A stretch of 33,395 bases of DNA from assembly GCA_023663225.1 (NCBI GenBank), contig JAMPHU010000033.1, positions 1-33,395 of the forward strand, given 5' to 3'. Positions 2,899 through 15,559 of this stretch are shown here, piece by piece. Position 1 is the first letter of the stretch, and the number at the start of each line of letters is the position of its first letter. The notes under the pieces are model-generated. The model was not told the DNA's origin. It searched no databases and saw nothing but the letters and a program-made list of their open reading frames with translations. A program made the position numbers and the translations under genes. Source of the stretch: Candidatus Gastranaerophilales bacterium (GTDB lineage: Bacteria; Bacillota; Clostridia; Lachnospirales; Lachnospiraceae).

Positions 2899-4803
2899 AT
2901 GCCATCACAATTTTTTGGATTAAATATTGCATATAAGGGTCTGTTGGCGTCCAATGCAGCGCTCAATACCACGGCGAACAATATTGCCAATGTCCAGACG
3001 GACGGTTATAGCAGGCAGCGAGTGGTGCAGCAGGCGAGCGATGCCCTCCGCGTATTTCAGACTTATGGCTGTGCGGGCGCGGGCGTTGAGACACTGGCGA
3101 TCGAGCGTGTCAGAGATGAGTTTTATGATGCGAAGTATTGGGATAACAATGCCAGCGTGGGCGAGTTCTCCATGAAGCAGTATTACATGCGGCAGATGGA
3201 GGATTATTTCAAAGACACAGAGAAGAATGCTGGTTTTAAGACCCTTTTTGATCAAATGATGATAACGGGCGTGCAGGAAGTTTTAAAGAACCCCAGCGAC
3301 TCCACCACACGGGCGCAGTTTATCGGTTACGCGGATTCCCTGGTCACCTATTTCAACGGCATGGCGGGCAATCTAAAGGCGATGCAGAAGGATGTCAACC
3401 AGGAGATCAAGTTGAAAGTGGATGAGATCAATTCTCTGGCGGCGGAGATCGCCAATTTGAACAAGCAGATCAACACGGTTGAGCTCTCAAGAACCAATGC
3501 CAATGAGCTTCGCGACAGGCGGACGCTGCTTTTGGATCAGCTTTCTCAGATCGTAGACATTCAGACCAAAGAGGTTCCGATCGTGGATCCCACCAATCCG
3601 AATTGGGAGACCGGCGCCAACCGTTTCGTAGTCACGATCGCCGGAGGACAGATGTTGGTGGATGACAGTGAGTACCGCAGTCTGGAATGTGTGGCGAGAA
3701 AAGATTATGAGAAGATGAACCAGACGGATATCGATGGCCTCTATGACGTGTACTGGGAGGATGGCCAGAAGTTCAAGCTTGAGAATGCGACGATGGGCGG
3801 CAACTTAAGAGGACTGGTGGAACTGCGGGACGGCAAGAACGGAGAGTATTTTCACGGCACCGTCACCGAGACGGACACCGTAAACAACACCGTTACAATC
3901 CAGGTTACCAGCGATTATTTGCAGGATTTGAATAAGTGTAATCTGTCAGACCAAGGAGGCATCATCAATCTGGGCAACAGAGAGTTTTACTACGACTCCT
4001 GGGAGTATCATTGTGAGTCCGACTACGATGCGGCGTCAGACACGTATTCGTACACCTATTCCTATACCTTTACTTTGTCGGGCAGCGAGAAAAACGGCAC
4101 GAATCGTTTGACCAATGACCGTGAGGGCATGGAAGCCAGCATCGGCACCAGCATCGATTATCAGGGTATTCCTTATTATATGGGACAGATGAATGAATGG
4201 GTGAGAACGTTTTCCCAGAAAGTGAATGATATTCTGGTGAGCGGTTACACTGCGGAAGACATGGCCGGCATGTATATGTTTACCGGCAATCATCCGGTGG
4301 AGGATGCACAGTTTCTCTTTTTGAAGCAGTATCATAATCTCGACCCGAGCGACAGTGTGACGGTCGGGTGTGCGGAGGACAGCTATTATCGTTTGACTGC
4401 TGAGAATTTCTCGATCCTGTCCGCTATGTTGCATGACCCTACGCTGTTGGCGACCAAGAGACCCGCGGGCGAGGGAGTAGAGCAGAATAAGCTGTTTGAA
4501 GATCTCAAGAACATGGGGTACGACAAGACGAAGATGAGTTTCCGCGGGGCGTCTGCTTCCGAATTTTTACAGTGCGTTTTGTCGGACGTGGCGCTGAACG
4601 CGTCCAGCGCGAATCTGTTCTACCAGAGTTACAGTGATATTTCGGGCAGTATAGACACGCAGAGGATATCGATTTCCGGCGTGGATGAGGATGAAGAGGC
4701 GGTCAGCCTTGTGAAATATCAAAATGCGTACAATCTGGCTGCCAAGATGGTTCAGACCTTGACGGAGATATACGATAAGCTGATATTGGATACCGGAGTG
4801 TAA
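2899..4803 (+). CDS. flgK: FlgK, hook-filament junction protein 1 (second paralogue)
   Basis: The product has 634 residues and again shows both FlgK ends: SQFFGLNIAYKGLLASNAAL with TTANNIANVQTDGYSRQR at the N-terminus, and AVSLVKYQNAYNLAAKMVQT at the C-terminus. The middle (about residues 230-470) carries a long variable beta-rich section with a Tyr/Ser/Thr-rich stretch near residues 375-395. The ribosome binding site GGGAGG at 2886-2891 lies 7 nt before the ATG, 15 nt after the first flgK. The two paralogues are clearly diverged outside their termini. They may form a hetero-oligomeric junction or serve as separate FlgK and FlgK-like rings; the sequence does not decide this. Confidence 0.88.
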   Translation: MPSQFFGLNIAYKGLLASNAALNTTANNIANVQTDGYSRQRVVQQASDALRVFQTYGCAGAGVETLAIERVRDEFYDAKYWDNNASVGEFSMKQYYMRQMEDYFKDTEKNAGFKTLFDQMMITGVQEVLKNPSDSTTRAQFIGYADSLVTYFNGMAGNLKAMQKDVNQEIKLKVDEINSLAAEIANLNKQINTVELSRTNANELRDRRTLLLDQLSQIVDIQTKEVPIVDPTNPNWETGANRFVVTIAGGQMLVDDSEYRSLECVARKDYEKMNQTDIDGLYDVYWEDGQKFKLENATMGGNLRGLVELRDGKNGEYFHGTVTETDTVNNTVTIQVTSDYLQDLNKCNLSDQGGIINLGNREFYYDSWEYHCESDYDAASDTYSYTYSYTFTLSGSEKNGTNRLTNDREGMEASIGTSIDYQGIPYYMGQMNEWVRTFSQKVNDILVSGYTAEDMAGMYMFTGNHPVEDAQFLFLKQYHNLDPSDSVTVGCAEDSYYRLTAENFSILSAMLHDPTLLATKRPAGEGVEQNKLFEDLKNMGYDKTKMSFRGASASEFLQCVLSDVALNASSANLFYQSYSDISGSIDTQRISISGVDEDEEAVSLVKYQNAYNLAAKMVQTLTEIYDKLILDTGV

Positions 4804-4835: not shown

Positions 4836-6440
4836 ATGAGAATTACCAACAAGATCATGCAGAAAAATAATCTCTCCAACATCAATACCAACAAGATCTA
4901 TCAGGATAAGTTGACCAATCAGATGTCCACACAGAAAAAGGTCAGCCGCCCTTCGGATGATCCGGTGGTGGCGATCAGGGCGCTTCGTCTGCGGAGCAAT
5001 GTGAATGATATCACACAGGTATACACGAAGAACATACCGGACGCGGAGAGCTGGATCGAAGTGACAGAGGGCGCGCTGCAGAATTTGACAGAGGTCATCA
5101 AGGCCGCGATCGGTCAGTGCACCAAGGGCGCCAACGGCGATCTGGAGGCAAAGGACAGACAGGTCATATTGGAGCAGTTGAAAGCGTTGGCGGATGAGGT
5201 GTATGTCACTGGCGACTCGGACTATGCGGGACGTTATGTGTTTACCGGTTATCGGACCAACACCTCTCTTCGGTTTGCCGATGATATACAAAAGCATTAC
5301 ACGATCACGGAACAGTTGGACAACAGTGTACTCGACAAGGTGACGCATGTTGTGACGCACAAGAGCACTACAGATATTCTGGATTGGAATGAGACGAACT
5401 TTTTCGATGATGCGGATATGAAGTCTTTCACGGAACAGGATATCGAAGAGGTGGAGTGCTACCGCATCAGACTGGCTTATAGCGACTGCATGGCGGAAGC
5501 GGGATATGTTCCGACCATTTCTCTGTGGGATCAAGACGCGACTCCTCAGCCGGCGTATACACCATGGCATGAAGCCGACGGCACGCCGGTGCAGATTCAG
5601 TCGATACATTCCTATGAGGATCCCTATTCTGAGGCGGCCAATGACCCTGACGCCGTCATATATGTTCCCGATACGGGGGAGATCTTGTTAGGCACCAACC
5701 GTTACAACACTTTGGCTGCGATCAAGGACGACTATACCACCAAGAGTGTGGATGAGGGAGAGATCCGCATCACTTACGAAAAAGAAAAATGGGTGGACGG
5801 CGATCTGCGTCCGGAGCATTACTTTGCGTGTGAGGCCACAGAAGTGAGGGACGGAGAGGATGTGACGATCAAATACAATGAGGCCTATCTGGAGGGCAAT
5901 GACGAGAAGCAGGTGATCGAATACGATGTAGGTTACAATCAGAAGATTCAGATCAATTCTACTGCGGACGAGTGTTTTGTGCACGGCATAGGCAGAGACA
6001 TGGAAGATCTGGCGGCGGCTATGCAGGAGGTGTTAGATATCGAGGCGGTTCAGACCAAGATCGACACGGCCCTGAAGAACGAGACGGACGAGGAGAAAAA
6101 GAAGGTCTTACAGGATCAACTGGATGCCGTGGGAAAGGCTTATACTTACGCAAAGAATAAGTGTCAGAGAATGTTTGAGAGCGGGATCACTGCCATGCAG
6201 GGGTATTTGGATCTGACCAACTTAGCGATCACGAACAACGGCACGCGGGGGAGAAAGCTCGAGCTGATCGAGAACCGTATGCAGGATCAAAAGACTACTT
6301 TTGAGACTTTGAAGAGCGAGAACGAGGATATTGATATCACGGAGGTAGCGATTCAGTTGAGCAGCGCGGAGCTCACCTATGAGGCAGCGCTGATGGCCTC
6401 CGGTAAGGTCATGCAGACGACTCTGCTCAACTTCATCTGA
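4836..6440 (+). CDS. flgL: FlgL, hook-filament junction protein 2 (enlarged)
   Basis: The N-terminus (MRITNKIMQKNNLSNINTNK, then KKVSRPSDDPVVAIRALRLR) is the flagellin-like FlgL/D0-D1 region, and the C-terminus ends in the matching helix (LTYEAALMASGKVMQTTLLN). FlgL sits between FlgK and the first flagellin subunits. At 534 residues it is well above the roughly 300 residues usual for FlgL. The extra length is a central acidic beta-rich insert of about 250 residues (roughly 150-400) containing several Asp/Glu-rich stretches. GAGGTG at 4823-4828 is the ribosome binding site. Confidence 0.9.
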   Translation: MRITNKIMQKNNLSNINTNKIYQDKLTNQMSTQKKVSRPSDDPVVAIRALRLRSNVNDITQVYTKNIPDAESWIEVTEGALQNLTEVIKAAIGQCTKGANGDLEAKDRQVILEQLKALADEVYVTGDSDYAGRYVFTGYRTNTSLRFADDIQKHYTITEQLDNSVLDKVTHVVTHKSTTDILDWNETNFFDDADMKSFTEQDIEEVECYRIRLAYSDCMAEAGYVPTISLWDQDATPQPAYTPWHEADGTPVQIQSIHSYEDPYSEAANDPDAVIYVPDTGEILLGTNRYNTLAAIKDDYTTKSVDEGEIRITYEKEKWVDGDLRPEHYFACEATEVRDGEDVTIKYNEAYLEGNDEKQVIEYDVGYNQKIQINSTADECFVHGIGRDMEDLAAAMQEVLDIEAVQTKIDTALKNETDEEKKKVLQDQLDAVGKAYTYAKNKCQRMFESGITAMQGYLDLTNLAITNNGTRGRKLELIENRMQDQKTTFETLKSENEDIDITEVAIQLSSAELTYEAALMASGKVMQTTLLNFI

Positions 6441-6486
6441 TACTGATACAACACAGCAAAGGCGCGGCGGCGCAGATAGGAGCTCT

Positions 6487-6945
6487 ATGAAACTTAACAC
6501 AAAGATTTTTGGAGAGATTGAAATTTCAGACGACAAGATCATCACTTTTGAAAACGGTATTATCGGATTCCCTGATCTGAAGCGTTTTGCGCTTCTCCAT
6601 GATGAGGATCAGGGGGAGGAAGCGGGGATTCGGTTTTTGCAGTCCTTTGACGAGCCGGCGTTTGCGATGCCGGTGATGGAACCCCTGGTGGTTGCGCCGG
6701 ACTATGATCCCGAAGTGGAGGATGAATTGCTCGCCTGTGTGGGGAATCTGACGCCGGATAATCTGGTGGTGCTGGTCACGGTGACGGTGCCTTCGGACTT
6801 GAAAAAGATGAGCGTGAATCTGCAGGGACCTATCATTATCAATGCCGAGGAGCACAAAGGCTGTCAGATCATTGTGGAAGGCAGCAAGTATCCGGTAAAG
6901 TTTCCTATTTATGATATCCTTCAGGCGAGAAAGGAAGGTGAGTAG
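6487..6945 (+). CDS. fliW: FliW, flagellar assembly factor and CsrA antagonist
   Basis: This 152-residue protein matches FliW along its length, with the ENGIIGFPDLKRFAL motif near residues 22-36 and the KMSVNLQGPIIIN strand near residues 101-113. In Bacillus subtilis FliW binds either free flagellin or CsrA. When flagellin is exported, FliW is released, binds CsrA and relieves repression of flagellin translation. Here fliW is followed after one base by csrA, whose ribosome binding site lies inside the last fliW codons, so the two are very likely translationally coupled at a fixed ratio. The ribosome binding site of fliW is AGGAG at 6478-6482, close to the ATG. Confidence 0.93.
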   Translation: MKLNTKIFGEIEISDDKIITFENGIIGFPDLKRFALLHDEDQGEEAGIRFLQSFDEPAFAMPVMEPLVVAPDYDPEVEDELLACVGNLTPDNLVVLVTVTVPSDLKKMSVNLQGPIIINAEEHKGCQIIVEGSKYPVKFPIYDILQARKEGE

Positions 6946-6946
6946 G

Positions 6947-7165
6947 ATGCTGGCGTTATCCAGGAAGAAAAATGAGGCTATCATTATCAACAACAATGTG
7001 GAAGTGACAATCCTGGAAGTGAAGGGCGACCAGGTAAAGATCGGTATCGCGGCGCCCAAGGAAGTCTCCATCTACCGAAAAGAAGTGTATCTCCAGATTC
7101 AGGAGGCCAATCAAGAAGCTGTCAATGTGGAAGGAATGAACGCATTGAAAAATTTGTTAGGGTAG
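6947..7165 (+). CDS. csrA: CsrA, translational repressor
   Basis: This 72-residue RNA-binding protein begins MLALSRKKNEAIIINNNVEV and has the APKEVSIYRKEVY segment, with Leu4 and Arg44 at the positions known to contact GGA motifs in RNA. It continues past the 61-residue length of the E. coli protein with a C-terminal extension (EANQEAVNVEGMNALKNLLG). Such extensions carry the FliW-binding surface in FliW-containing bacteria. The ATG at 6947 is chosen because it gives the exact CsrA start and follows AAGGAAGG at 6931-6938. The stop codon lies inside the first arm of a hairpin at 7159-7180. Likely targets in this window are listed separately. Confidence 0.95.
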   Translation: MLALSRKKNEAIIINNNVEVTILEVKGDQVKIGIAAPKEVSIYRKEVYLQIQEANQEAVNVEGMNALKNLLG

Positions 7166-7190
7166 TTTTGCGGCTACCCTATAAATTTTT
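7159..7190 (+). terminator. hairpin overlapping the csrA stop codon, probable weak terminator
   Basis: AGGGTAG at 7159-7165 pairs perfectly with CTACCCT at 7174-7180 around an 8-nt loop, and is followed by ATAAATTTTT. The 5' arm contains the csrA stop codon TAG. The U-tract is interrupted, so some readthrough into flaG is likely. The same T-rich segment carries the -35 element of the next promoter. Confidence 0.6.
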
Positions 7191-7209
7191 AGGGGAAGTC
7201 TGCCGATAA
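7182..7209 (+). promoter_or_regulatory. sigma-28 promoter of flaG-fliD-fliS-fliT
   Basis: The -35 element TAAA is at 7182-7185 and the -10 element GCCGATAA at 7202-7209, with a 16-nt spacer. The -10 element is identical to that of the flgM promoter. Transcription would start near 7215, giving a leader of about 80 nt before flaG. Confidence 0.85.
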
Positions 7210-7253
7210 AAACAATAGAAACCAGATTTATCTTTTGCGGGTGCGCAATAGAG

Positions 7254-7290
7254 GCGTCGAAGGAAGACGCGAAGATTCACACGGAGGTGA
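7254..7290 (+). promoter_or_regulatory. candidate double CsrA site in the flaG leader
   Basis: The first hairpin is GCGTC 7254-7258 with GACGC 7266-7270, loop GAAGGAA, presenting GGA at 7262-7264. The second hairpin is TCAC 7277-7280 with GTGA 7287-7290, hexaloop ACGGAG, presenting GGA at 7283-7285 within the ribosome binding site of flaG. The two GGA motifs start 21 nt apart, which suits one CsrA dimer bridging both. CsrA binding to GGA in hairpin loops over ribosome binding sites is well established; binding here is inferred. Confidence 0.6.
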
Positions 7291-7295
7291 CAGAG

Positions 7296-7727
7296 ATGGC
7301 AATCGAACCATTAGGAAGTGTAATGACAGTGCAGGCGCAGGGATCTGCGACGCAGAAACCGGCGGTACAGGAAAAAAGCGCGGAGAATTACACCGCGGCG
7401 AATGTCGAGCCTGTAGAGAAGCTTGACAAGACTACGAACGTGGTGGAAAATTCTCAGGGAAAGGGCTCGGCCGACGCTTCTCAGCAGGGTAATGACAAGC
7501 AGGCGAGCACAGAGCAGATCAAGAAGGCGGTCGAGCAGTTGAACAAGAGTATGGCAGCGCACTCTGAGGCTATATTCGGCATCCATGAGGACACGAACCG
7601 CGTGATGATCAAGATTGTGGATAAGGATACGAAGAAAGTTTTGAAGGAGCTTCCCCCCGAGAAGACGTTGGATATGATAGCCAAGGTGTGGGAGATGGCA
7701 GGTATCCTTATAGACGAGAAGAGATAG
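7296..7727 (+). CDS. flaG: FlaG family flagellar protein
   Basis: The product has 143 residues. The first half is low-complexity, Gln/Ala/Glu-rich and probably disordered. The second half (about residues 70-143) is the conserved FlaG domain, with VEQLNKSMAAHSEAIFGIHE and then RVMIKIVDKDTKKVLKELPP and a C-terminal helix. FlaG is a small protein of uncertain mechanism that affects filament length in some bacteria. It is usually found just before fliD, as here. The ATG at 7296 is preceded by GGAGGTGA at 7283-7290; an in-frame ATG at 7287 lies inside that site and is rejected. fliD follows 12 nt after the stop. Confidence 0.9.
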   Translation: MAIEPLGSVMTVQAQGSATQKPAVQEKSAENYTAANVEPVEKLDKTTNVVENSQGKGSADASQQGNDKQASTEQIKKAVEQLNKSMAAHSEAIFGIHEDTNRVMIKIVDKDTKKVLKELPPEKTLDMIAKVWEMAGILIDEKR

Positions 7728-7740
7728 GAGGATAAGGATA
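7703..7740 (+). promoter_or_regulatory. 9-bp stem enclosing the fliD ribosome binding site
   Basis: TATCCTTAT at 7703-7711, inside the end of flaG, is perfectly complementary to ATAAGGATA at 7732-7740, which ends at the first base of the fliD ATG. The 20-nt loop holds the ribosome binding site GGAGG (7727-7731). Such a fold would be opened by ribosomes finishing flaG and could couple fliD translation to flaG. Function is inferred. Confidence 0.45.
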
Positions 7741-9602
7741 TGGCGATGAGATTATCCGGTCTGATATCCGGCATGGATACGGACAGTGTGATCCAGCAGT
7801 TGGTGCAGGCCAAAAGCACCAAAGTAAATAAGGCGAAGAAGGAGCAGACCAAGCTGGAGTGGAAGACCGATGCTTGGAAAGAATTAAATAAGAAGCTTAA
7901 GAGCTTTCAGAGCAAGTATCTCAACAATATGCGTTTTGCTTCCGACTATGCGAAGAAGACGACCAAGGCGTCCAATTCCAACGCGGTGAGTGTGATCACG
8001 GGGAGCGGCGCGATGGACAGCGTGCAAAGCCTGGATATCAACGAGCTGGCTAAGACCGCTTATATGACCGGCGGCAAGATCGAGATGCCGTACGGTCAGG
8101 GGGGCGATGTGACCGCCCTGACTACCATGAGCCAGTTGGGGATCACAGAGGGAGCGGCTTTCCAGGTGAAAAAGGGCGGCGAGACCACGATGATCAACGT
8201 AGACGCCAGCACCACGATCTCGGATGTGTTGAACCAGTTGAAAGAGGCCGGATTGAACGCAAGCTTTGACGCCAACCAGAAGAGACTGTTTATCAGCGGC
8301 AAGGAATCCGGAGCGGCGGAGAATTTCTCGATCACTGCGGCCAATGGCGCTGGAGCGAGGGCTATGGGAGTTCTGGGACTTAGCACGGGCAGCAGCAGGG
8401 TGACAGGCGCTTCTATTACCAAGACAGGCGGAGGCATCGCAGACAAAACGACTACTCTACGTGATTTGGGGATTACGGCTGCGACTACCTTCATGGCTGC
8501 CAATAATGCAGGCAATTCAGGGGATTCGCTTGGAATTATACATCTCGATCCGGATGAAACGATTGAGAACGTGTTAGAAAAGCTGAAGGAAAACGGTTTC
8601 GAGGCACAATTTGATGAAACTACAGGTCGGATTTCCATGTCCGGCGTGAATGGTTTTGTTATTGGCAGGGATGCGACAGTCGGCTCCCAAGACGCACTGG
8701 AGAAGCTTGGACTTGCGGAGAATCAGACCACCAGAGTAGACGACAGCGGAGAGCGCTACGCCGTTATGATAAAGGGTCAGGATGCGCGGATCACTTTGAA
8801 CGGCGCCACCTTCACCAGCAAGAACAATGTCTTTGAGGTCAACGGCCTGACCATCACCGCCCAGGAGGTGGCCAGCAATATCACCCTTACCACAGAGACG
8901 GATACCGACGGCATCTACGACATGGTCAAGAACTTCATCAAGGATTACAGCGAGCTTGTGAACGAGATGGATAAGCTGTACAACGCGGATTCCACCAAGG
9001 GATATGAGCCTTTGACCGACGAGGAGAAGGAGAGCATGTCCGAGGCGGAGATCGAGAAGTGGGAGACCAAGATCAAAGATTCTCTGCTTCGCCGCGATGA
9101 CAACCTGTACAAGGTGAACAATTCGCTGCAGACGATCATGGCCGAAGGGTTCAATGTCAATGGCAAGCAGATGTATCTGAGTAATTTCGGCATCAACACT
9201 TTGGGTTACTTTGCAGCGGAAGACAATGAGCGCCATGCTTACCACATCGACGGCAATGCGGATGACGAGGATACATCCGCCAATGAAGATAAACTCAGAC
9301 AGATGATTACCGCCGATCCGGATGCTGTGGTGTCCTTCTTCACCCAATTGACACAGAAAATGTACACCAAGATGAACGAGCTGTCAACGTCGGTAGAGGA
9401 TTACAGATCCTTCGGCAATTTCTACGACGACAAGAAGATGAAAACGGACTACAGGGAATACACCAGCAAGATCTCTGACCTGGAGAAAAAGCTGGCGGAT
9501 TATGAGGATAAGTGGTATTCCAAGTTTGCGGCTATGGAGACGGCCATGGCGAAGCTGCAGGAGAGTACCAGCGCCATCACCAGTCTGCTGGGCGGTTCAT
9601 AA
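7740..9602 (+). CDS. fliD: FliD, filament cap protein (HAP2)
   Basis: This 620-residue protein has a typical FliD N-terminus (MRLSGLISGMDTDSVIQQLV) and a C-terminal helical domain ending in DLEKKLADYEDKWYSKFAAM and a Ser/Thr-Gly tail. FliD forms the cap at the filament tip and directs flagellin folding; it is exported with the FliT-type chaperone. The centre holds two similar modules of about 65 residues (about 122-186 and 237-301), each with the pattern LGIT ... TI..VL..LKE.G..A.FD ... SG. This resembles the flagellin-IN repeat found in FliD and some flagellins. The ATG at 7740 follows GGAGG with 8 nt spacing. Confidence 0.93.
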   Translation: MAMRLSGLISGMDTDSVIQQLVQAKSTKVNKAKKEQTKLEWKTDAWKELNKKLKSFQSKYLNNMRFASDYAKKTTKASNSNAVSVITGSGAMDSVQSLDINELAKTAYMTGGKIEMPYGQGGDVTALTTMSQLGITEGAAFQVKKGGETTMINVDASTTISDVLNQLKEAGLNASFDANQKRLFISGKESGAAENFSITAANGAGARAMGVLGLSTGSSRVTGASITKTGGGIADKTTTLRDLGITAATTFMAANNAGNSGDSLGIIHLDPDETIENVLEKLKENGFEAQFDETTGRISMSGVNGFVIGRDATVGSQDALEKLGLAENQTTRVDDSGERYAVMIKGQDARITLNGATFTSKNNVFEVNGLTITAQEVASNITLTTETDTDGIYDMVKNFIKDYSELVNEMDKLYNADSTKGYEPLTDEEKESMSEAEIEKWETKIKDSLLRRDDNLYKVNNSLQTIMAEGFNVNGKQMYLSNFGINTLGYFAAEDNERHAYHIDGNADDEDTSANEDKLRQMITADPDAVVSFFTQLTQKMYTKMNELSTSVEDYRSFGNFYDDKKMKTDYREYTSKISDLEKKLADYEDKWYSKFAAMETAMAKLQESTSAITSLLGGS

Positions 9603-9615
9603 AACGCGTTACCAT

Positions 9616-9654
9616 TCAGCCATGCTGAAGTGATAGTAGGCATGGCTGACTTTT
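9616..9654 (+). terminator. hairpin after fliD, possible attenuator
   Basis: TCAGCCATGC at 9616-9625 pairs perfectly with GCATGGCTGA at 9640-9649 (10 bp, 14-nt loop), followed by C then TTTT. The short T-tract suggests partial termination between fliD and fliS, or a stabilising 3' end for the flaG-fliD message. Confidence 0.5.
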
Positions 9655-9659
9655 ATTCT

Positions 9660-9699
9660 ATGCATGAGATATTTTGCGAAATGCGCTATCTCATGGCAT
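9660..9699 (+). other. second hairpin in the fliD-fliS gap
   Basis: CATGAGATA at 9663-9671 pairs perfectly with TATCTCATG at 9687-9695. Outer bases ATG at 9660-9662 can extend the stem with nearby bases after a bulged G. No T-tract follows, so it is not a terminator. It may be an mRNA processing or stability element in front of fliS. Confidence 0.45.
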
Positions 9700-9710
9700 G
9701 TAGACGGAGA

Positions 9711-9724
9711 CAACATGGAGGTTG
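9711..9724 (+). promoter_or_regulatory. candidate CsrA hairpin over the fliS ribosome binding site
   Basis: CAAC at 9711-9714 pairs with GTTG at 9721-9724 around the hexaloop ATGGAG (9715-9720). The loop contains most of the ribosome binding site GGAGG (9717-9721). Another GGA lies at 9706-9708. The loop is of the same A-N-GGAG type as those of flaG, flagellin and the glycosyltransferase. Confidence 0.5.
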
Positions 9725-9727
9725 AAT

Positions 9728-10114
9728 ATGCCGTTACCGAATGCCTATACACAATACAATAAGAACAAAGTGCTGACTGCAAGTCCTGCGGAGCTGACTC
9801 TGATGCTTTATGACGGGGCGATCAAATTCTGCAATATTGCGATTATGGCGATAGAGCAGAAAGATATCCAGAAATCCCATGAAAACATTATCAAAGCACA
9901 AAAGATCGTAGACTATTTCAGGCAGACATTGGATATGCAGTACGCTGTTGCGGAAGATTTTGACAGAGTCTACGAGTATATCGGGCGGCGGCTGGTGGAG
10001 GCAAACGTGAAGAAAGATGCGGAGATCCTTATGGAAGCCAAGGAACATCTGACTTCCATGCGCGACACCTGGAAAGAAGTTATGAAGAAAAACAGAGAGC
10101 AGGGTAATATATAA
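9728..10114 (+). CDS. fliS: FliS, flagellin export chaperone
   Basis: This 128-residue helical protein has the FliS signature, with NAYTQYNKNKVLTASPAELT then LMLYDGAIKFCNIA near the N-terminus. FliS binds the C-terminal D0 helix of flagellin in the cytosol and prevents early polymerisation. In B. subtilis it also helps flagellin compete for FliW. The ATG at 9728 is preceded by GGAGG at 9717-9721 with 6 nt spacing; the TTG at 9722 is too close to this site. The stop overlaps the start of the next gene as TAATG (10112-10116). Confidence 0.93.
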   Translation: MPLPNAYTQYNKNKVLTASPAELTLMLYDGAIKFCNIAIMAIEQKDIQKSHENIIKAQKIVDYFRQTLDMQYAVAEDFDRVYEYIGRRLVEANVKKDAEILMEAKEHLTSMRDTWKEVMKKNREQGNI

Positions 10115-10587
10115 TGGAGAATTATCTGAACGTGCTGGAGGAAAGCCTTCATAAGAAAATACATGTGCTGGGCAAGATACAGGAGTACAACGCCAGGCAG
10201 CAGCAAATCTTCCAGTCGGACATGGTAGATATGGATGAATTTGATCAGTCCGTGGAGGAGAAAGGCAAACTGATCGAGGAAGTGGAGCAGCTCGACAATG
10301 GCTTTGAACTTCTGTACGCCAATCTGGCCAGACAACTACAGGAGGACAAGACCCGCTACGCCGCTCAGATTCACACCCTGCAGGAATTGATCAAGCAGAT
10401 CACGGACATGGGAGTGACCGTGCAGGCGCAGGAGGCCCGCAACAAGAGGCTGATCGAGGAATACTTCCGCAAGAGTAGGCAAAACTTGAATCAGGACAAG
10501 AAAACTTCCAAGGCGGCCTTTGACTATTATAAGAACATGAACAACAGCCATTTTGTCCCGCCACAGTTTATGGACAGCAAGCAATGA
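10114..10587 (+). CDS. FliT/FlgN-like coiled-coil flagellar chaperone
   Basis: This 157-residue protein is almost entirely charged helix (Gln/Glu/Lys-rich, residues 1-135), with the C-terminal stretch AAFDYYKNMNNSHFVPPQFM. It overlaps fliS by one base, so it is translationally coupled to it, and it ends the flaG-fliD-fliS unit. FliT, the FliD export chaperone, occupies this position in many genomes. Sequence similarity to classical FliT is not obvious by eye, so the name rests on size, helical character and context. No signal peptide or membrane segment is visible. Confidence 0.65.
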   Translation: MENYLNVLEESLHKKIHVLGKIQEYNARQQQIFQSDMVDMDEFDQSVEEKGKLIEEVEQLDNGFELLYANLARQLQEDKTRYAAQIHTLQELIKQITDMGVTVQAQEARNKRLIEEYFRKSRQNLNQDKKTSKAAFDYYKNMNNSHFVPPQFMDSKQ

Positions 10588-10607
10588 AAAAAATCAATAA
10601 TTTTTTT
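10587..10607 (+). terminator. weak A/U-only hairpin and T-tract after the FliT-like gene
   Basis: Seven A then T (10587-10594) can pair with A and seven T (10600-10607) around a 5-nt loop. The stem has no GC pairs, so termination would be weak. The A/T-rich stretch may act equally as an upstream element for the flagellin promoter. Confidence 0.35.
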
Positions 10608-10618
10608 AAATTATCCTC

Positions 10619-10645
10619 TAAAGTAATTTAAAATCTTTCCGATAT
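10619..10645 (+). promoter_or_regulatory. sigma-28 promoter of flagellin
   Basis: The -35 element TAAA is at 10619-10622 and the -10 element TCCGATAT at 10638-10645, with a 15-nt spacer. An A/T-rich block lies just upstream. The start would fall near 10651, giving an unusually long leader of about 190 nt before the flagellin ATG. Confidence 0.87.
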
Positions 10646-10701
10646 ACTTAACAAGTAAAGCAGATAGAACAAGTAAGTTTAAAGTTCAAGCTTTCTTAGA
10701 G

Positions 10702-10786
10702 GCAGCTCCAAGCCAATACGCACAATTGGCGTAAGGTTGTCGATACCAACGCTGTGAGCCCGATAGGTGCGAATCGGAGGAGCAGC
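10702..10786 (+). ncRNA. cloverleaf-like structured leader of flagellin, unrecognised family
   Basis: A closing stem pairs GC-A-GCTCC (10702-10709) with GGAGC-A-GC (10779-10786), seven pairs with one A-A mismatch. Inside are three hairpins: GCCAAT/ATTGGC (10712-10730, loop ACGCACA), GTTG/CAAC (10736-10750, 7-nt loop) and CCGAT/ATCGG (10760-10777, loop AGGTGCGA). CGCAC in the first loop (10719-10723) is complementary to GTGCG in the third (10767-10771), suggesting a kissing contact. The plan resembles a tRNA cloverleaf with joined D and T loops, but CCA, U33 and a standard T-loop are missing. The fold is read by eye. It may be a regulatory RNA domain. Confidence 0.5.
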
Positions 10787-10800
10787 AAAACAACAAGTTG

Positions 10801-10838
10801 GCCGCATGGAAGCGGCTGTATATTCAAGGAGGAATATA
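10801..10838 (+). promoter_or_regulatory. candidate double CsrA site in the flagellin leader
   Basis: The first hairpin is GCCGC (10801-10805) with GCGGC (10812-10816), hexaloop ATGGAA. The second is TATATTC (10819-10825) with GAATATA (10832-10838), hexaloop AAGGAG, which is the flagellin ribosome binding site. The GGA motifs start at 10808 and 10828, 20 nt apart. In B. subtilis CsrA represses hag by binding one site over the ribosome binding site and one hairpin upstream; this is the same layout. Binding here is inferred. Confidence 0.72.
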
Positions 10839-10840
10839 GT

Positions 10841-12319
10841 ATGGTAGTACAACACAATTTAACTGCGATGAACTCTAACAGAATGTTAGGCCTGACCACA
10901 TCTTCTCTTTCCAAGTCTACAGAGAAGTTGTCTTCCGGATACAAGATCAACCGTGCGGCTGACGATGCAGCAGGTCTGGCTATTTCCGAGAAGATGAGAA
11001 AGCAGATCAGAGGTCTTACACAGGCTTCTGCAAACGCTGAGGATGGCATCAGTGCAGTACAGACCGCTGAAGGCGCTCTGACTGAAGTACAGGATATGCT
11101 CCAGAGAATGAACGAGCTGGCTGTAAAGGCGGCTAACGGCACCAACTCTGAGTCCGACAGAACTTCCATCCAGGCTGAGATCAATCAGTTGAGCACTGAG
11201 ATCGATCGTGTCGCTGAGACCACAAAATTCAACGAGACCTATCTGTTGAAAGGTGACAGCGCAGCGCCTAAGACCTACAGCTACAAGTACAACACGATCT
11301 CTACTTCTACCACGACTGCAAGCGTATCCATGGGTGGTACTGCTAAGGCTGGTAAGATCACAGATGTTACCACCGGCATGACCGTTACCGTAACCTTCAG
11401 TGGAAGCGCATCTTCTGCTGATCAGAACGCGATCGCTAAGTCTCTGGTAAATCAAGGTATCAACGTATCCTTGTACAGCAACTTCGTTGGTTCCGCTGCT
11501 ACCACTGGTTACAGTGTACAGTTGAACGGCGACGCTGCTAAGAACTACTCCGTGGTGGCTGGATCTGCTTCCGGCAAGTTTGAGATTTTGAACTCCGCTG
11601 GTAAGCTGGTTGCAACCTTCTCCGTGAGCGGCGGTACTGTGGCGAAGGCTACAAGCGACGTTCCTAAGCAGGTGACAAGCGCAGTGATCACTGCAGCTAG
11701 CGCAAAGGCAGCTACGGTTAAGGGCGAAGTGAACGCTTACTATGACAAGGATGGCAACAAGATTTCGGCTAACGCTCTGAATCGGTACTTCTCGACCAAT
11801 ACTTCCGGCAGCGCAGTAGCTAGAGTGGATGCTCCCGCAGTGTATGACGCACTCGGCAACTTGACCTCTCTCACTGCAAGCGCAGTTTCCAGCCAGAAGG
11901 TTCTGACCGGTGCTCTGAAGCTGACACTCCATGTTGGCGCAGATGCTACTTCCAACAACCAGATCACTCTGAACCTTGACGCTATGAGCGCTAAGGGATT
12001 GGGTGTAAACGGTCTGAGAATTGACGGAACTGATGACACCAATGCTCGCGCAGCAATCGAGACCATCAGCGAAGCGCTCGCTAAGGTTTCCGCACAGAGA
12101 GCTGACCTGGGTGCTGTTCAGAACAGACTTGAGCACACCATCAACAACCTGGATAACGTTGTTGAGAATACCACCAGCGCTGAGTCCGCTATCCGCGATA
12201 CGGATATGGCTTCTGAGATGGTTAAGTACTCCAACAGCAACATCCTTTCTCAGGCAGGTCAGGCTATGCTTGCACAGGCTAACCAGTCCAACCAGGGTGT
12301 TCTGTCCTTACTTGGCTAA
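10841..12319 (+). CDS. fliC: flagellin, filament subunit
   Basis: This 492-residue flagellin has conserved D0/D1 ends: [20 protein letters not shown] through about residue 140, and [20 protein letters not shown] to the terminal LLG. The central 230 residues are variable, rich in Ser, Thr, Ala and Val, and are the surface-exposed D2/D3 part with many possible O-glycosylation sites. The D1 segment [20 protein letters not shown] corresponds to the TLR5-contact region of Salmonella flagellin. The ATG at 10841 follows AAGGAGG with 8 nt spacing; an upstream in-frame ATG at 10754 lies within the structured leader and is rejected. Regulation: sigma-28 promoter, long leader, two CsrA-type hairpins. 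A strong terminator follows. Confidence 0.95.
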
Positions 12320-12354
12320 TAAGTGGTTGATATCACAGTTAAGTGTAGAACCCT

Positions 12355-12397
12355 ACAAAAGCGGGGAGTCGGCTCTGCCGACTCCCCGTTGTTTTGT
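12355..12397 (+). terminator. rho-independent terminator of flagellin
   Basis: CGGGGAGTCGGC (12362-12373) pairs perfectly with GCCGACTCCCCG (12377-12388) around the loop TCT. Flanking ACAAAA (12355-12360) and TTTTGT (12392-12397) extend the structure. The T-tract is TTGTTTTG. This is a very stable terminator, so the glycosyltransferase downstream should be expressed at a small fraction of flagellin. No clear promoter is visible from 12398 to 12437. Confidence 0.88.
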
Positions 12398-12437
12398 AAA
12401 GATACCAGTATATGACGTAACTCACAAATAGTTTGAT

Positions 12438-12453
12438 TTAGCATGGAGGCTAA
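12438..12453 (+). promoter_or_regulatory. candidate CsrA hairpin over the glycosyltransferase ribosome binding site
   Basis: TTAGC (12438-12442) pairs perfectly with GCTAA (12449-12453) around the hexaloop ATGGAG (12443-12448), which holds most of the ribosome binding site GGAGG (12445-12449). The loop is identical to that before fliS while the stem is unrelated, as expected if the structure rather than the sequence is under selection. Confidence 0.52.
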
Positions 12454-12455
12454 CA

Positions 12456-14600
12456 ATGAAACCAATCTTATCCATTTCCCTTCTCTGTTCCGGCAGGAAG
12501 GATACTACCAAAAAGTGCCTGGATTCTCTGAAAAAGATCATGGATCAAGTGGAGAGTGAACTGATTATCGTAGACACCGGATGCGACGAGGCGACGCGAG
12601 AGCTTTTGGAAGAGTATACTGACCACATTGTCCCCTTTACTTGGTGTAATGATTTCGGGGCGGCCAGAAATGCAGGATTGCAGGAAGCAAAGGGAGAATG
12701 GTTTCTTTATATAGATGACGATGAATGGTTCGAGGAAGTGGGAGAGATCGTGGATTTCTTCCGCACGGGCGAGTATAAAAAGTACGGTCAGGCGTGCTAT
12801 ATCCAGAGGAATTACCGAGATTTTGAGGGAGTTCATTTTCAGGATATGTGGGTGTCCCGCATGATCAAGCTGCGTTCGGACACGCACTTTATAGACCGAA
12901 TCCATGAGTACTTGCACCCCATTCACGGCCAGAATAAATTGCTTTACTGCTGGGCGAATCATTACGGCTATATCTATCACAACGCGGAAGATAAAAAGAA
13001 GCACGACGAGAGAAACGTGTCCATTATGAAGGAAATTTTGATAAAACAGCCGGGACACTTGCGGGTTCGCGCCCATCTCGCCCAGGAGTATATGGGAGTC
13101 CCCAATCACAAGGAGATGCGGGAACTGTGTCTGGGCGGTATCGATCAACTGCGGAAGAAGGATGATGAGCTGTCCAATTCCTACAGACAGACTTTTTATT
13201 TGGGCGCGCTGTTGGCTAAGGAATGTCTGGATGACAAGGACTCGTTGGAGTTTTTTGAGGAAGCGGTCAAGGACAAGCGCAACGACAGTCTGGGAAGAGC
13301 CGGTCTCTGTCAGTTGGCTTCGGAGCTTTATTACAAAAAGAAAGACTATGAGGCCTGTGATAAGTGCTGTGAGTACTATATCAAAGTCTACAACAAGGAG
13401 GCTGGAGCGCAGGGAGAATTGCGGAAACTTCCCATGAGTCCGATCTTTACCCAACATATTTTCTATACGCAGAACCGCAATAATCTGTTTTGTATTTATA
13501 TCGCCAACAAACTGGCGCAGGATGACACCTCTGTTTTGAAGGAGTACTTTTGGAAATTGGGTTGGGACGAGGCGAATTTCAGCATCCATGAGAGCATGGT
13601 CATAGAGGCGGTGGCAGCCATGGCCAGGCTGCCCTACGAGGAGGAGTTTGTAGAGATTGTCCGCAAGATGCTGCAGCAGGAGCAGATTCGTGATTTTACC
13701 ATTGATACGGCGAAAAAAGTGGCGGAGAAGAGCGAGGCGGCGCTCTATGCCTTGGCAAAGATTTTCGGCCAGATGGATTCTCCTCATTATTACATTTGGT
13801 ATATGAAGCTGTTTTATGCGGCCGATGAGCATAGGGAGGCGGACGTGAAGGAGGCTTTCTGTCAGTTGTTCAAGAAGGTGCTGGACGCTTTGGCGCTGGA
13901 TGACAAGGTGTTTGCCGTTGCCGACGAATACGTGCTGGATATGGAAGAGGTCATTGCCGGAGTTGCCTTTGATCAGTGGAAGCAATGTGTGGACTCTCTC
14001 TGTGAGAAGAATCCCATGGATGTGGTGTGGAAGAGAGAAGCGTTCATGGAGAGACGCTGCCAAGGGGAGGGCAGTCGCTATGGGTATTTTAAATGGAAAG
14101 TGTCCGAAGTGGAGACGGTAGTTACCGTGGAGGCGACGGATTATAAGATGATTCGGGATAGAATGAAGCAGTTTTCCGACACCACGTATTCTTTCTATGG
14201 GAATTACTATCTGCCGGAGGCGTTTGAGGGAGAGATGGAGATGCTGCCGCCCTCTGCCCGGGTAGGGGCGTGCTTACGGCGTGTCTTACAGGCGGAAGAG
14301 GCCGGAGATATCGCGTTGTTCCGCCAGGAGTTGACGGCTGCTATAGGAATATTCCGGCCTTTGGACGAGGGCCTCAAAAAGTTCGGAAAATTGTATGCGG
14401 CTTACAGAGAGGAACAACTCAAGGAAAGCCAGCAAGTCAGCGATGAGATGCGGATGCTCGCCCGTCAGGTGAAGCAGCAGTTGTACCGCTTTATCTTAAA
14501 GGGAGATAAGCAGACGGCATATGGTATTTTGCAGCAGCTCAAAGCGCTCACGCCGGATGACCCCGAATTGGCACAGTTGGAGGCGCAGTGCAAAGAATAA
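12456..14600 (+). CDS. GT2-family glycosyltransferase with long helical repeat region, probable flagellin-modifying enzyme
   Basis: This 714-residue protein starts with a GT-A glycosyltransferase domain of about 220 residues. ISLLCSGRKDTTKKCLDSLK opens the fold, NDFGAARNAGL (65-75) matches the donor-binding region and YIDDDEW (85-91) is the DXD-type metal and nucleotide-sugar site. From about residue 200 on it is helical, with TPR-like stretches (for example YYKKKDYEACDKCCEYYIKV), ending near residue 714. No signal peptide or membrane segment is seen, so it is cytosolic. Placement directly after flagellin, and before a second glycosyltransferase, suggests it adds sugars to flagellin Ser/Thr before export. 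The donor sugar cannot be told. The ATG follows GGAGG with 6 nt spacing. Confidence 0.83.
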   Translation: MKPILSISLLCSGRKDTTKKCLDSLKKIMDQVESELIIVDTGCDEATRELLEEYTDHIVPFTWCNDFGAARNAGLQEAKGEWFLYIDDDEWFEEVGEIVDFFRTGEYKKYGQACYIQRNYRDFEGVHFQDMWVSRMIKLRSDTHFIDRIHEYLHPIHGQNKLLYCWANHYGYIYHNAEDKKKHDERNVSIMKEILIKQPGHLRVRAHLAQEYMGVPNHKEMRELCLGGIDQLRKKDDELSNSYRQTFYLGALLAKECLDDKDSLEFFEEAVKDKRNDSLGRAGLCQLASELYYKKKDYEACDKCCEYYIKVYNKEAGAQGELRKLPMSPIFTQHIFYTQNRNNLFCIYIANKLAQDDTSVLKEYFWKLGWDEANFSIHESMVIEAVAAMARLPYEEEFVEIVRKMLQQEQIRDFTIDTAKKVAEKSEAALYALAKIFGQMDSPHYYIWYMKLFYAADEHREADVKEAFCQLFKKVLDALALDDKVFAVADEYVLDMEEVIAGVAFDQWKQCVDSLCEKNPMDVVWKREAFMERRCQGEGSRYGYFKWKVSEVETVVTVEATDYKMIRDRMKQFSDTTYSFYGNYYLPEAFEGEMEMLPPSARVGACLRRVLQAEEAGDIALFRQELTAAIGIFRPLDEGLKKFGKLYAAYREEQLKESQQVSDEMRMLARQVKQQLYRFILKGDKQTAYGILQQLKALTPDDPELAQLEAQCKE

Positions 14601-14674
14601 GCAAAGGTATGAAAGGCGTCTGCAATGAAGAAGGCATCGTTTCAATGTAAATTTCAGGAGGATGTGGACTTAAC

Positions 14675-15559
14675 ATGAGGATACAGTTTTTGAATGGAGG
14701 TCTTGCAAATCAGGCGTTTCAGTATATTTTTGCGCGATATTATGAATTGTCCACAGGGGAAAAGATGTATTTGGACGATTCCTATTTTGCGTTGAACACG
14801 GTGCACAATGGGTATGAACTGGAGAAGGTGTTTGGGATCAAAGCTCCTATGTTGAGCGAATGTTTTGACGAGGAAGTGTGGGGATTTATTCTGGACGAGC
14901 GCAGAAAGGGAAAGAGCGTCCCCACAATTCTGTGTGAAAATCAGATTCCTTTTTATATGTTGTCTGAGGTGGGGCCGGGACATCAGGAATTTAATCCTTT
15001 TGAGGGTGAAGTAGTCTCTATCCAATGCAACGAGTATCATCCGGAGATCTTGAGGTTCCCGGATGATGTCTATTATCATGGTTACTGGATCAACAAAAAT
15101 TGGTTCGCCAAATATAAAGATACTTTTTTGAAAGAATTTTCCTTTCCGGAGATCACGGATCCTGTGAATAAAAGACATTTGGAGCGGATCCAAAAGACCA
15201 ACTCGGTCTCCATCCATATCCGCAGAGGAGATTATGTGACAGTGGGTTGGGCTTTTCAGGAAGACGTATATTCCAAGCTGGTAGAGGGGTACGTTTCCGC
15301 CGCGCCGGGGAAATGGGAGCTTTTTGTGTTTTCCGACGATATCCCCTGGTGCAGAGAGCATTGGAAGGAATTGGGTTTCGGCGCGTTTGAGGATGTGACT
15401 TACATTGAAGGGAATGTGCAGGGGAAGAATTATATAGATATGCAGTTGATGAGCAGGTGTAAAGGCATGATCATGTCCAACAGTGCGTTTTGTTATCTGG
15501 CGGCTTTGTTGAACACCACAAAGCGCTATTGGCTGAATCCTACGACGCGGGAAGTGTAA
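14675..15559 (+). CDS. GT11-family alpha-1,2-fucosyltransferase-like protein
   Basis: The product has 294 residues. It begins with FLNGGLANQAFQYIFARYYE, the GT11 N-terminal motif, and has HIRRGDY at residues 181-187, the HxRRxD-type GDP-fucose binding motif of alpha-1,2 and alpha-1,6 fucosyltransferases. VFSDDIPWC and YIDMQLMSRCKGMIMSNSAF near the C-terminus are further GT11 motifs. No membrane segment is visible. It would move fucose from GDP-fucose onto an acceptor glycan. The neighbouring glycosyltransferase and flagellin genes suggest a filament glycan, though a cell-surface polysaccharide is possible. The ribosome binding site GGAGG (14657-14661) is 13 nt before the ATG, longer than usual; a four-codon frame ATG-TGG-ACT-TAA lies between them. 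Confidence 0.85.
   Translation: MRIQFLNGGLANQAFQYIFARYYELSTGEKMYLDDSYFALNTVHNGYELEKVFGIKAPMLSECFDEEVWGFILDERRKGKSVPTILCENQIPFYMLSEVGPGHQEFNPFEGEVVSIQCNEYHPEILRFPDDVYYHGYWINKNWFAKYKDTFLKEFSFPEITDPVNKRHLERIQKTNSVSIHIRRGDYVTVGWAFQEDVYSKLVEGYVSAAPGKWELFVFSDDIPWCREHWKELGFGAFEDVTYIEGNVQGKNYIDMQLMSRCKGMIMSNSAFCYLAALLNTTKRYWLNPTTREV

Follow-up and report, generated by a model that had tools for sequence, protein, structure and literature searches.

How far does the CsrA-FliW switch, which is known to control flagellin in Bacillus subtilis and Campylobacter jejuni (PMC6529632, PMC4894983), reach into the flagellar genes of a lachnospiracean genome, and can it be recognized in their leaders? This question is raised by a stretch of 33,395 nucleotides, here called the window, which is contig JAMPHU010000033.1 (positions 1 to 33,395 of the forward strand) of assembly GCA_023663225.1, named Candidatus Gastranaerophilales bacterium and placed by GTDB in the Lachnospiraceae. 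An earlier reading, made from the letters alone (the sequence-only reading), had claimed that the Shine-Dalgarno (SD) sequences of flaG, fliS, flagellin and a glycosyltransferase gene are all held in ANGGAG hexaloops and form a four-gene CsrA regulon. Our results suggest that these leaders are very probably CsrA operators, with two loops at flagellin and flaG and an SD-only loop at fliS and the glycosyltransferase, through which a CsrA-FliW switch would tie translation to export. Control of flagellin and flaG by CsrA/FliW is likely, and the full four-gene regulon is plausible as a local extension of it.

Every GGA in the window was scanned for hairpins with loops of 5-8 nucleotides, and the leaders concerned were folded, which gave the following features.

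7254..7270, + strand: upstream flaG hairpin GCGTC-GAAGGAA-GACGC with a 7-nucleotide loop (scan and fold).
7277..7290, + strand: flaG SD hairpin TCAC-ACGGAG-GTGA, start codon at 7296 (scan and fold; conserved in relatives).
9711..9724, + strand: fliS SD hairpin CAAC-ATGGAG-GTTG, start codon at 9728 (scan and fold; limited to the clade of the window).
10799..10818, + strand: upstream flagellin hairpin TGGCCGC-ATGGAA-GCGGCTG with two G-T pairs (scan, fold and covariation).
10819..10838, + strand: flagellin SD hairpin TATATTC-AAGGAG-GAATATA, start codon at 10841 (scan and fold; conserved).
12438..12453, + strand: glycosyltransferase SD hairpin TTAGC-ATGGAG-GCTAA, start codon at 12456 (scan and fold; near relatives only).

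By direct reading and by the GGA scan, the four SD hairpins lie exactly where they had been reported, and each holds the SD in an ANGGAG loop closed by a C-G pair. The earlier list was incomplete, as it had overlooked the upstream hairpins of flagellin and flaG. The upstream flagellin hairpin abuts the SD hairpin, and the two GGA motifs are 20 nucleotides apart in the flagellin leader and 21 in the flaG leader, so that both have a second GGA loop within the range of about 18-25 nucleotides upstream that marks an operator, the one at flaG being of 7 nucleotides. Before the SD hairpins of fliS and the glycosyltransferase the scan found no second upstream GGA hairpin; the fliS leader carries an unpaired ACGGAG 12 nucleotides upstream. 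The minimum-energy folds contain the complete SD hairpins of flaG, fliS and flagellin and both upstream hairpins (the flagellin one with 6 of its 7 pairs). That of the glycosyltransferase leader retains only the four inner pairs, and this leader overall folds worse than its shuffled versions (z +2.18).

Such stems are rare in the same genome. The control comprised 40 stretches, or 613,177 of 3,293,098 bases, in which a site was defined as GGAG with the ATG of an open reading frame of 100 or more codons following within 7-16 nucleotides (n = 611). At least four Watson-Crick pairs surround the hexaloop at 1/611 sites and at least three at 8/611, which excludes the possibility that hairpins of this kind are equally frequent at ribosome binding sites genome-wide. 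Among the 199 control sites with ANGGAG, a single one has at least four pairs, and it is closed by A-T, while C-ANGGAG-G as such is present at 18/611 sites. CAC at the flaG position accompanies none of 13 control GGAGGTG sites, and TTC at the flagellin position accompanies one of 43 GGAGGAA sites. No Pfam match was obtained for the proteins that follow the control hairpin at L123 (an open reading frame of 150 amino acids) and a C-ATGGAG-G hairpin at L109 (420 amino acids). When the control rule was applied to the window with 60 codons, exactly the four reported sites reached at least four pairs. Of the other SD-like sites listed for the window, those in front of likely genes form at most one pair, and two intragenic sites form 2 and 3.

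The comparison was extended to relatives by means of FliW, which was found in 149 of the 299 genomes of the family and in 50 of the 61 genomes of the genus; fliW-centred regions were sampled from 80 of the 196 other FliW-bearing genomes. These regions contain 1872 SD-like sites, 83 of which have at least four pairs: 37 before flagellin, 34 before flaG, two each before fliS, the glycosyltransferase and flgL, one before flgK and five elsewhere. The pooled leaders of flgK (two copies), flgL, fliW, csrA, fliD and flgN in the relatives reach this number in 2 of 438 GGA-bearing cases. The flgM gene of the window has no such hairpin; among the flgM leaders of named relatives (loci L287-L348), 20/71 have at least three pairs and 7/71 at least four. 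ANGGAN hairpins of the forms TCC-ANGGAA-GGA and AAGG-AGGGAT-CCTT occur in this set, for example at L319, L335 and L344, and CsrA of C. jejuni also bound flgM (PMC4894983).

The most extensive evidence comes from the flagellin leader, for which 72 leaders, including that of the window, were collected from N-terminal matches of 45% identity or more. The SD hairpin has at least three Watson-Crick pairs in 63 of them and at least four in 37, and an upstream ANGGAN hairpin with at least four pairs was found in 57 of the 71 leaders scored. These upstream hairpins are closed by C-G in 53 of 57 cases and show 20 different inner 4-bp pairings; their GGA lies 20 nucleotides from that of the SD in 31, 19-27 nucleotides in 54 and 44-52 nucleotides in three. 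Thirty leaders picked solely for a GGA exactly 20 nucleotides upstream each form at least four of the five inner pairs, amounting to 149 of 150 pairs overall. In an alignment of 29 gap-free leaders, picked for a spacing of 20 and at least four pairs, both sides of the upstream helix vary at 6 of 7 pairs, with a covariation score of 0.297 versus 0.142 after shuffling and at most 0.105 when the helix was slid. The inner three pairs of the SD helix are invariant in this alignment and hence little informative. In 110-nucleotide leaders, ANGGAN hairpins were present in 61 of 70, versus a mean of 0.65 of 70 after shuffling.

A covariance model of the flagellin hairpin pair (R1), tuned to one spacing and run with strict filters, found the flagellin leader of the window in its own genome with an E value of 9e-11. 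The next match, with an E value of 0.32, lies in unrelated sequence that looks coding, and with three weaker matches left out no further convincing copy of the operator was found in this genome. Across the family, R1 matched 79 of 299 genomes: 79/149 with FliW and 0/150 without it. Of the 30 family matches that were fetched, 27 were placed by script within 60 nucleotides of a flagellin start; the loci of the remaining three are clipped. At the level of the class, R1 matched 19 of 291 genomes, including 11 that belong to eight families other than this one, and a flagellin follows at each of the 17 loci that were newly fetched. Judged by these leaders, the flagellin switch is conserved widely.

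The flaG leader was compared in 119 distinct leaders pooled from both sets of relatives. Pairs 1-4 of the SD hairpin form in 113, 114, 109 and 109 of them, around a loop that reads ANGGAG in 117, whereas 18-46% of cells are paired when the register is shifted. Pair 4 is UA in 64 leaders, UG in 29, AU in 11 and GU in four, and thus changes in a compensatory manner. As the 3' arm presumably doubles as an extended Shine-Dalgarno sequence, the information of this stem resides in its 5' arm. The upstream flaG hairpin, with its 7-nucleotide loop and five pairs, is not family-wide: it was found in 11/119 leaders, which include all four members of the clade of the window, with different stems.

A different picture emerged for the other two genes. 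GGA-bearing fliS leaders have at least four pairs in 3/68 and 3/61 cases in two overlapping sets that share genomes, the carriers being the window, the three genomes closest to it, in which the hairpin is identical, and the unrelated L053. The block CGGAGACAACATGGAGGTTGAA is identical in the four clade members, and the spacer before it hardly aligns. The glycosyltransferase hairpin has the same stem in the window and L285 and reads GATTC-AAGGAG-GAATC in G022; it is absent from two G310 copies and from a paralogue in the own genome, and the leaders at L111 and L094 have 4-bp stems with loops that lack the leading A. In the clade alignment both hairpins were retained while the adjacent spacer diverged, and they look like recent local additions confined to the closest relatives. 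The expectation of the sequence-only reading that the stems would covary around a fixed loop was therefore borne out to different degrees. It held for the flaG SD hairpin and strongly for flagellin, albeit in the upstream hairpin that the reading did not contain, the SD hairpin being kept with inner pairs that hardly vary; for the glycosyltransferase there is one stem exchange (G022) alongside three absences; and it failed for fliS, whose hairpin is unchanged in four carriers. Likewise, the proposed regulon is likely to hold for flagellin, by covariation and R1, and for flaG, by its 119 leaders, while its fliS and glycosyltransferase parts are restricted to near relatives.

The regulators required for such a switch are encoded immediately upstream of flaG, as had been stated, and both match chains of the solved complex 5dmb.

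6487..6945, + strand: fliW, the CsrA antagonist (Pfam PF02623, E value 5.7e-38; match to 5dmb chain A).
6947..7165, + strand: csrA, 72 amino acids (Pfam PF02599; match to 5dmb chain D and to RsmE 2jpp; Arg44 kept).

The flagellin leader has the anatomy of known CsrA operators, since it has two loops, the second on the SD, as in C. jejuni; two sites are also known or predicted in the leaders of B. subtilis and Clostridioides difficile. According to the portions of the literature on which we draw, C. jejuni flaA has two adjacent ANGGA hexaloop stem-loops, the second on the ribosome binding site, 21 nucleotides apart and close to an optimum of 18; flaG is among the CsrA-bound leaders there, and FliW is the antagonist (PMC4894983). 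In that species fliW lies apart from csrA, whereas here they are side by side, and fliS was not enriched with CsrA, whereas here fliS and the glycosyltransferase carry SD hairpins (PMC4894983). B. subtilis hag shares a pair of CsrA sites of which one covers the SD, an adjacent fliW-csrA pair and flagellin autoregulation by partner switching, but in the portions of that work on which we draw hag is the single known flagellar target, while here a site of this kind is also present at flaG (PMC6529632, PMC8523840). For C. difficile fliC two similar sites were predicted, of which the upstream one reads CAAGGATG and the SD one AAGGAGG, although in the accessible portion of that work this is a prediction for one species with no cross-genome comparison (PMC8523840). 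The ANGGAN hexaloop on a C-G closed stem is also that of the solved RsmE complexes with hcnA and RsmZ, which differ in being gammaproteobacterial targets with small-RNA antagonists instead of FliW (PMC4005645, PMC7652899). In loop, closing pair and two-site layout the leaders thus agree with CsrA/RsmE targets whose structures have been solved or which have been footprinted. Titles and the beginnings of abstracts in the open full-text literature, with subscription papers outside it, contained no report of these Lachnospiraceae leaders or of the second CsrA described below; the part of PMC3720852 that was available describes the locus and mentions CsrA, and leader hairpins are not mentioned in it.

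From these leaders we infer that CsrA binds, bridges and represses, that FliW acts as the switch, and that fliS and the glycosyltransferase may be affected. A CsrA dimer would grip the upstream ANGGA loop of the flagellin leader, and in the clade of the window that of the flaG leader too, and bridge to the SD-bearing ANGGAG loop 20-21 nucleotides further on, excluding the ribosome. FliW would remove CsrA when cytoplasmic flagellin is low, and translation would therefore follow export. The fliS and glycosyltransferase hairpins may be single SD-only sites gained in a small clade, which would place the flagellin chaperone, and an enzyme presumed to modify flagellin, under the same switch. They are probably of lower affinity, because the flaG, flaB and flgI leaders of C. 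jejuni were bound less tightly than flaA; deletion of csrA alone left translation from these three unchanged in that species (PMC4894983).

Several observations weigh against this proposal. Nearly all relatives lack the hairpins of fliS and the glycosyltransferase, and in the available part of the C. jejuni study, in which pseB was enriched, one flagellin-modification mRNA was unbound and fliS was not enriched (PMC4894983). R1 has no match in 70 of the 149 FliW genomes, although the model is strict and tuned to one spacing. The contrast with FliW-less genomes is weakened by the fact that 142 of these 150 have no flagellin; of the eight with a flagellin match, five lack both FliW and CsrA, and three have CsrA with no FliW match. 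The leaders of the five csrA-less genomes, compared after exclusion of the truncated or FlgL-like loci L196, L197, L198 and L203 and belonging to divergent flagellins, are free of hairpins both at the SD and around the customary upstream position, as would be expected, yet two of the five contain a distant 4-bp ANGGAN hairpin, 94 and 112 nucleotides upstream.

One may suppose that CsrA acts on flagellin and flaG alone, and that the other two hairpins are due to chance or to hitch-hiking sequence. Their absence from nearly all relatives and the unchanged fliS hairpin of the four carriers agree with this supposition, and the glycosyltransferase hairpin of G022 is similar to that at the flagellin SD, from which it may have been copied. 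Chance is less easily reconciled with the single stem of four or more pairs among 611 SD sites of the own genome, or with a fliS block that is identical in four genomes behind a spacer that can no longer be aligned, or with a glycosyltransferase loop that survives a stem exchange; the 12 of the 83 well-paired sites of the relatives that belong to neither flagellin nor flaG also speak against the supposition. We therefore take this restricted set of targets as a serious possibility, though a doubtful one. That RNA structure alone, as a thermometer or as a stem that presents the SD or stabilizes the mRNA, holds or exposes the SD without CsrA is very unlikely. Some of the stems are short and structure at a ribosome binding site can act by itself, but the SD is unpaired, conservation is confined to exactly A-GGA and its C-G closing pair on stems of changing sequence, and R1 matches are restricted to FliW genomes. 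A thermometer or SD-masking hairpin in particular was rejected because the SD sits in the loop. Least probable of all is that the loops are read mainly by FliW or another protein rather than by CsrA. An as yet unexplained binding of FliW to the hag leader of B. subtilis has been reported in the part of the work available (PMC6529632); the loop, however, is the CsrA/RsmE consensus, and genomes with CsrA and no FliW match keep ANGGAN hairpins in 4/6 flagellin leaders, small numbers that come from divergent flagellins.

In addition to the CsrA of the window, the genome encodes a second one (CsrA2, 103 amino acids) on contig C107, followed by a second flagellin and the glycosyltransferase paralogue, with no FliW match at the locus.

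L257 (G000:C107), - strand: csrA2 at 5574-5882, flagellin N terminus at 5020-5436 and glycosyltransferase at 3232-3972.

Next to csrA2 in the same genome, and divergent from it, an open reading frame at L256 1695-2381 resembles a tyrosine recombinase, as judged by eye from its translation. Relatives of csrA2 were found in 16 of 299 family genomes, at 19 loci without FliW, and at 18 of these the flagellin start lies 355-614 nucleotides after that of csrA2. An alignment, though short, puts the 19 CsrA2 and 81 CsrA proteins on opposite sides of a fully supported branch. All of them keep Arg44; Arg6, Gln29 and Glu46 are present in 81/81 CsrA and lost in 19/19 CsrA2. Of the corresponding stem-side contacts in RsmE, that of Thr5 is with the closing-pair G and that of Gln29 with the pair after it, while Arg6 and Glu46 both contact a looped-out base beside the stem (PMC4005645). 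The second flagellin leader of this genome has an A-U closed ACGGAT hairpin. ANGGAN hairpins occur in 14/18 CsrA2-linked leaders, 13 closed by A-U and one by C-G, versus 86/111 leaders at FliW loci, of which 80 are closed by C-G, five by A-U and one by G-C (Fisher test, 1.6e-11, uncorrected for relatedness). We infer that the specificity of CsrA2 has shifted. It is possible, though somewhat less likely than not, that some Lachnospiraceae, including this one, have two parallel CsrA-flagellin circuits, in which CsrA with FliW would act on C-G closed ANGGAN and CsrA2 mostly on A-U closed ANGGAT. The csrA2 cassette may be mobile.

Proteins of the window were assigned by Pfam search to FliW, CsrA, FlaG, FliD, FliS, FlgN, flagellin, and glycosyltransferases of family 2 and family 11.

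7182..7209, + strand: sigma-28-like promoter before flaG, TAAA then GCCGATAA (pattern match).
10841..12319, + strand: flagellin, 492 amino acids (Pfam Flagellin_N and Flagellin_C).
12456..14600, + strand: family 2 glycosyltransferase after flagellin (Pfam PF00535), presumed from its position to be flagellin-modifying.

The flagellin gene is preceded by TAAA ... CCGATAT, as read from the sequence, and no sigma-28-like site was seen before the glycosyltransferase, which is separated from flagellin by a strong terminator-like hairpin at 12361-12389. Two long inverted repeats are predicted by folding at 9616-9700, between fliD and fliS; they are absent in the near relative G022, in which this spacer is shorter. 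At L111 (G273, another genus) the flagellin N terminus is 91% and the glycosyltransferase 61% identical to those of the window, perhaps through horizontal transfer of the flagellin locus. A search of 6400-15000 against Rfam 15 gave no RNA family at the gathering score, the four matches with E values up to 5 all being far below it.

Taken together, the flagellin switch of Bacillus and Campylobacter appears to be readable directly from leader sequences, both in Lachnospiraceae and in eight further families of the class, and the R1 model locates the flagellin operator in raw sequence. The clade-limited sites at fliS and the glycosyltransferase would show a CsrA regulon growing ribosome binding site by ribosome binding site, and the CsrA2-flagellin pairs, if true, would be a natural experiment on the determinants of CsrA specificity.

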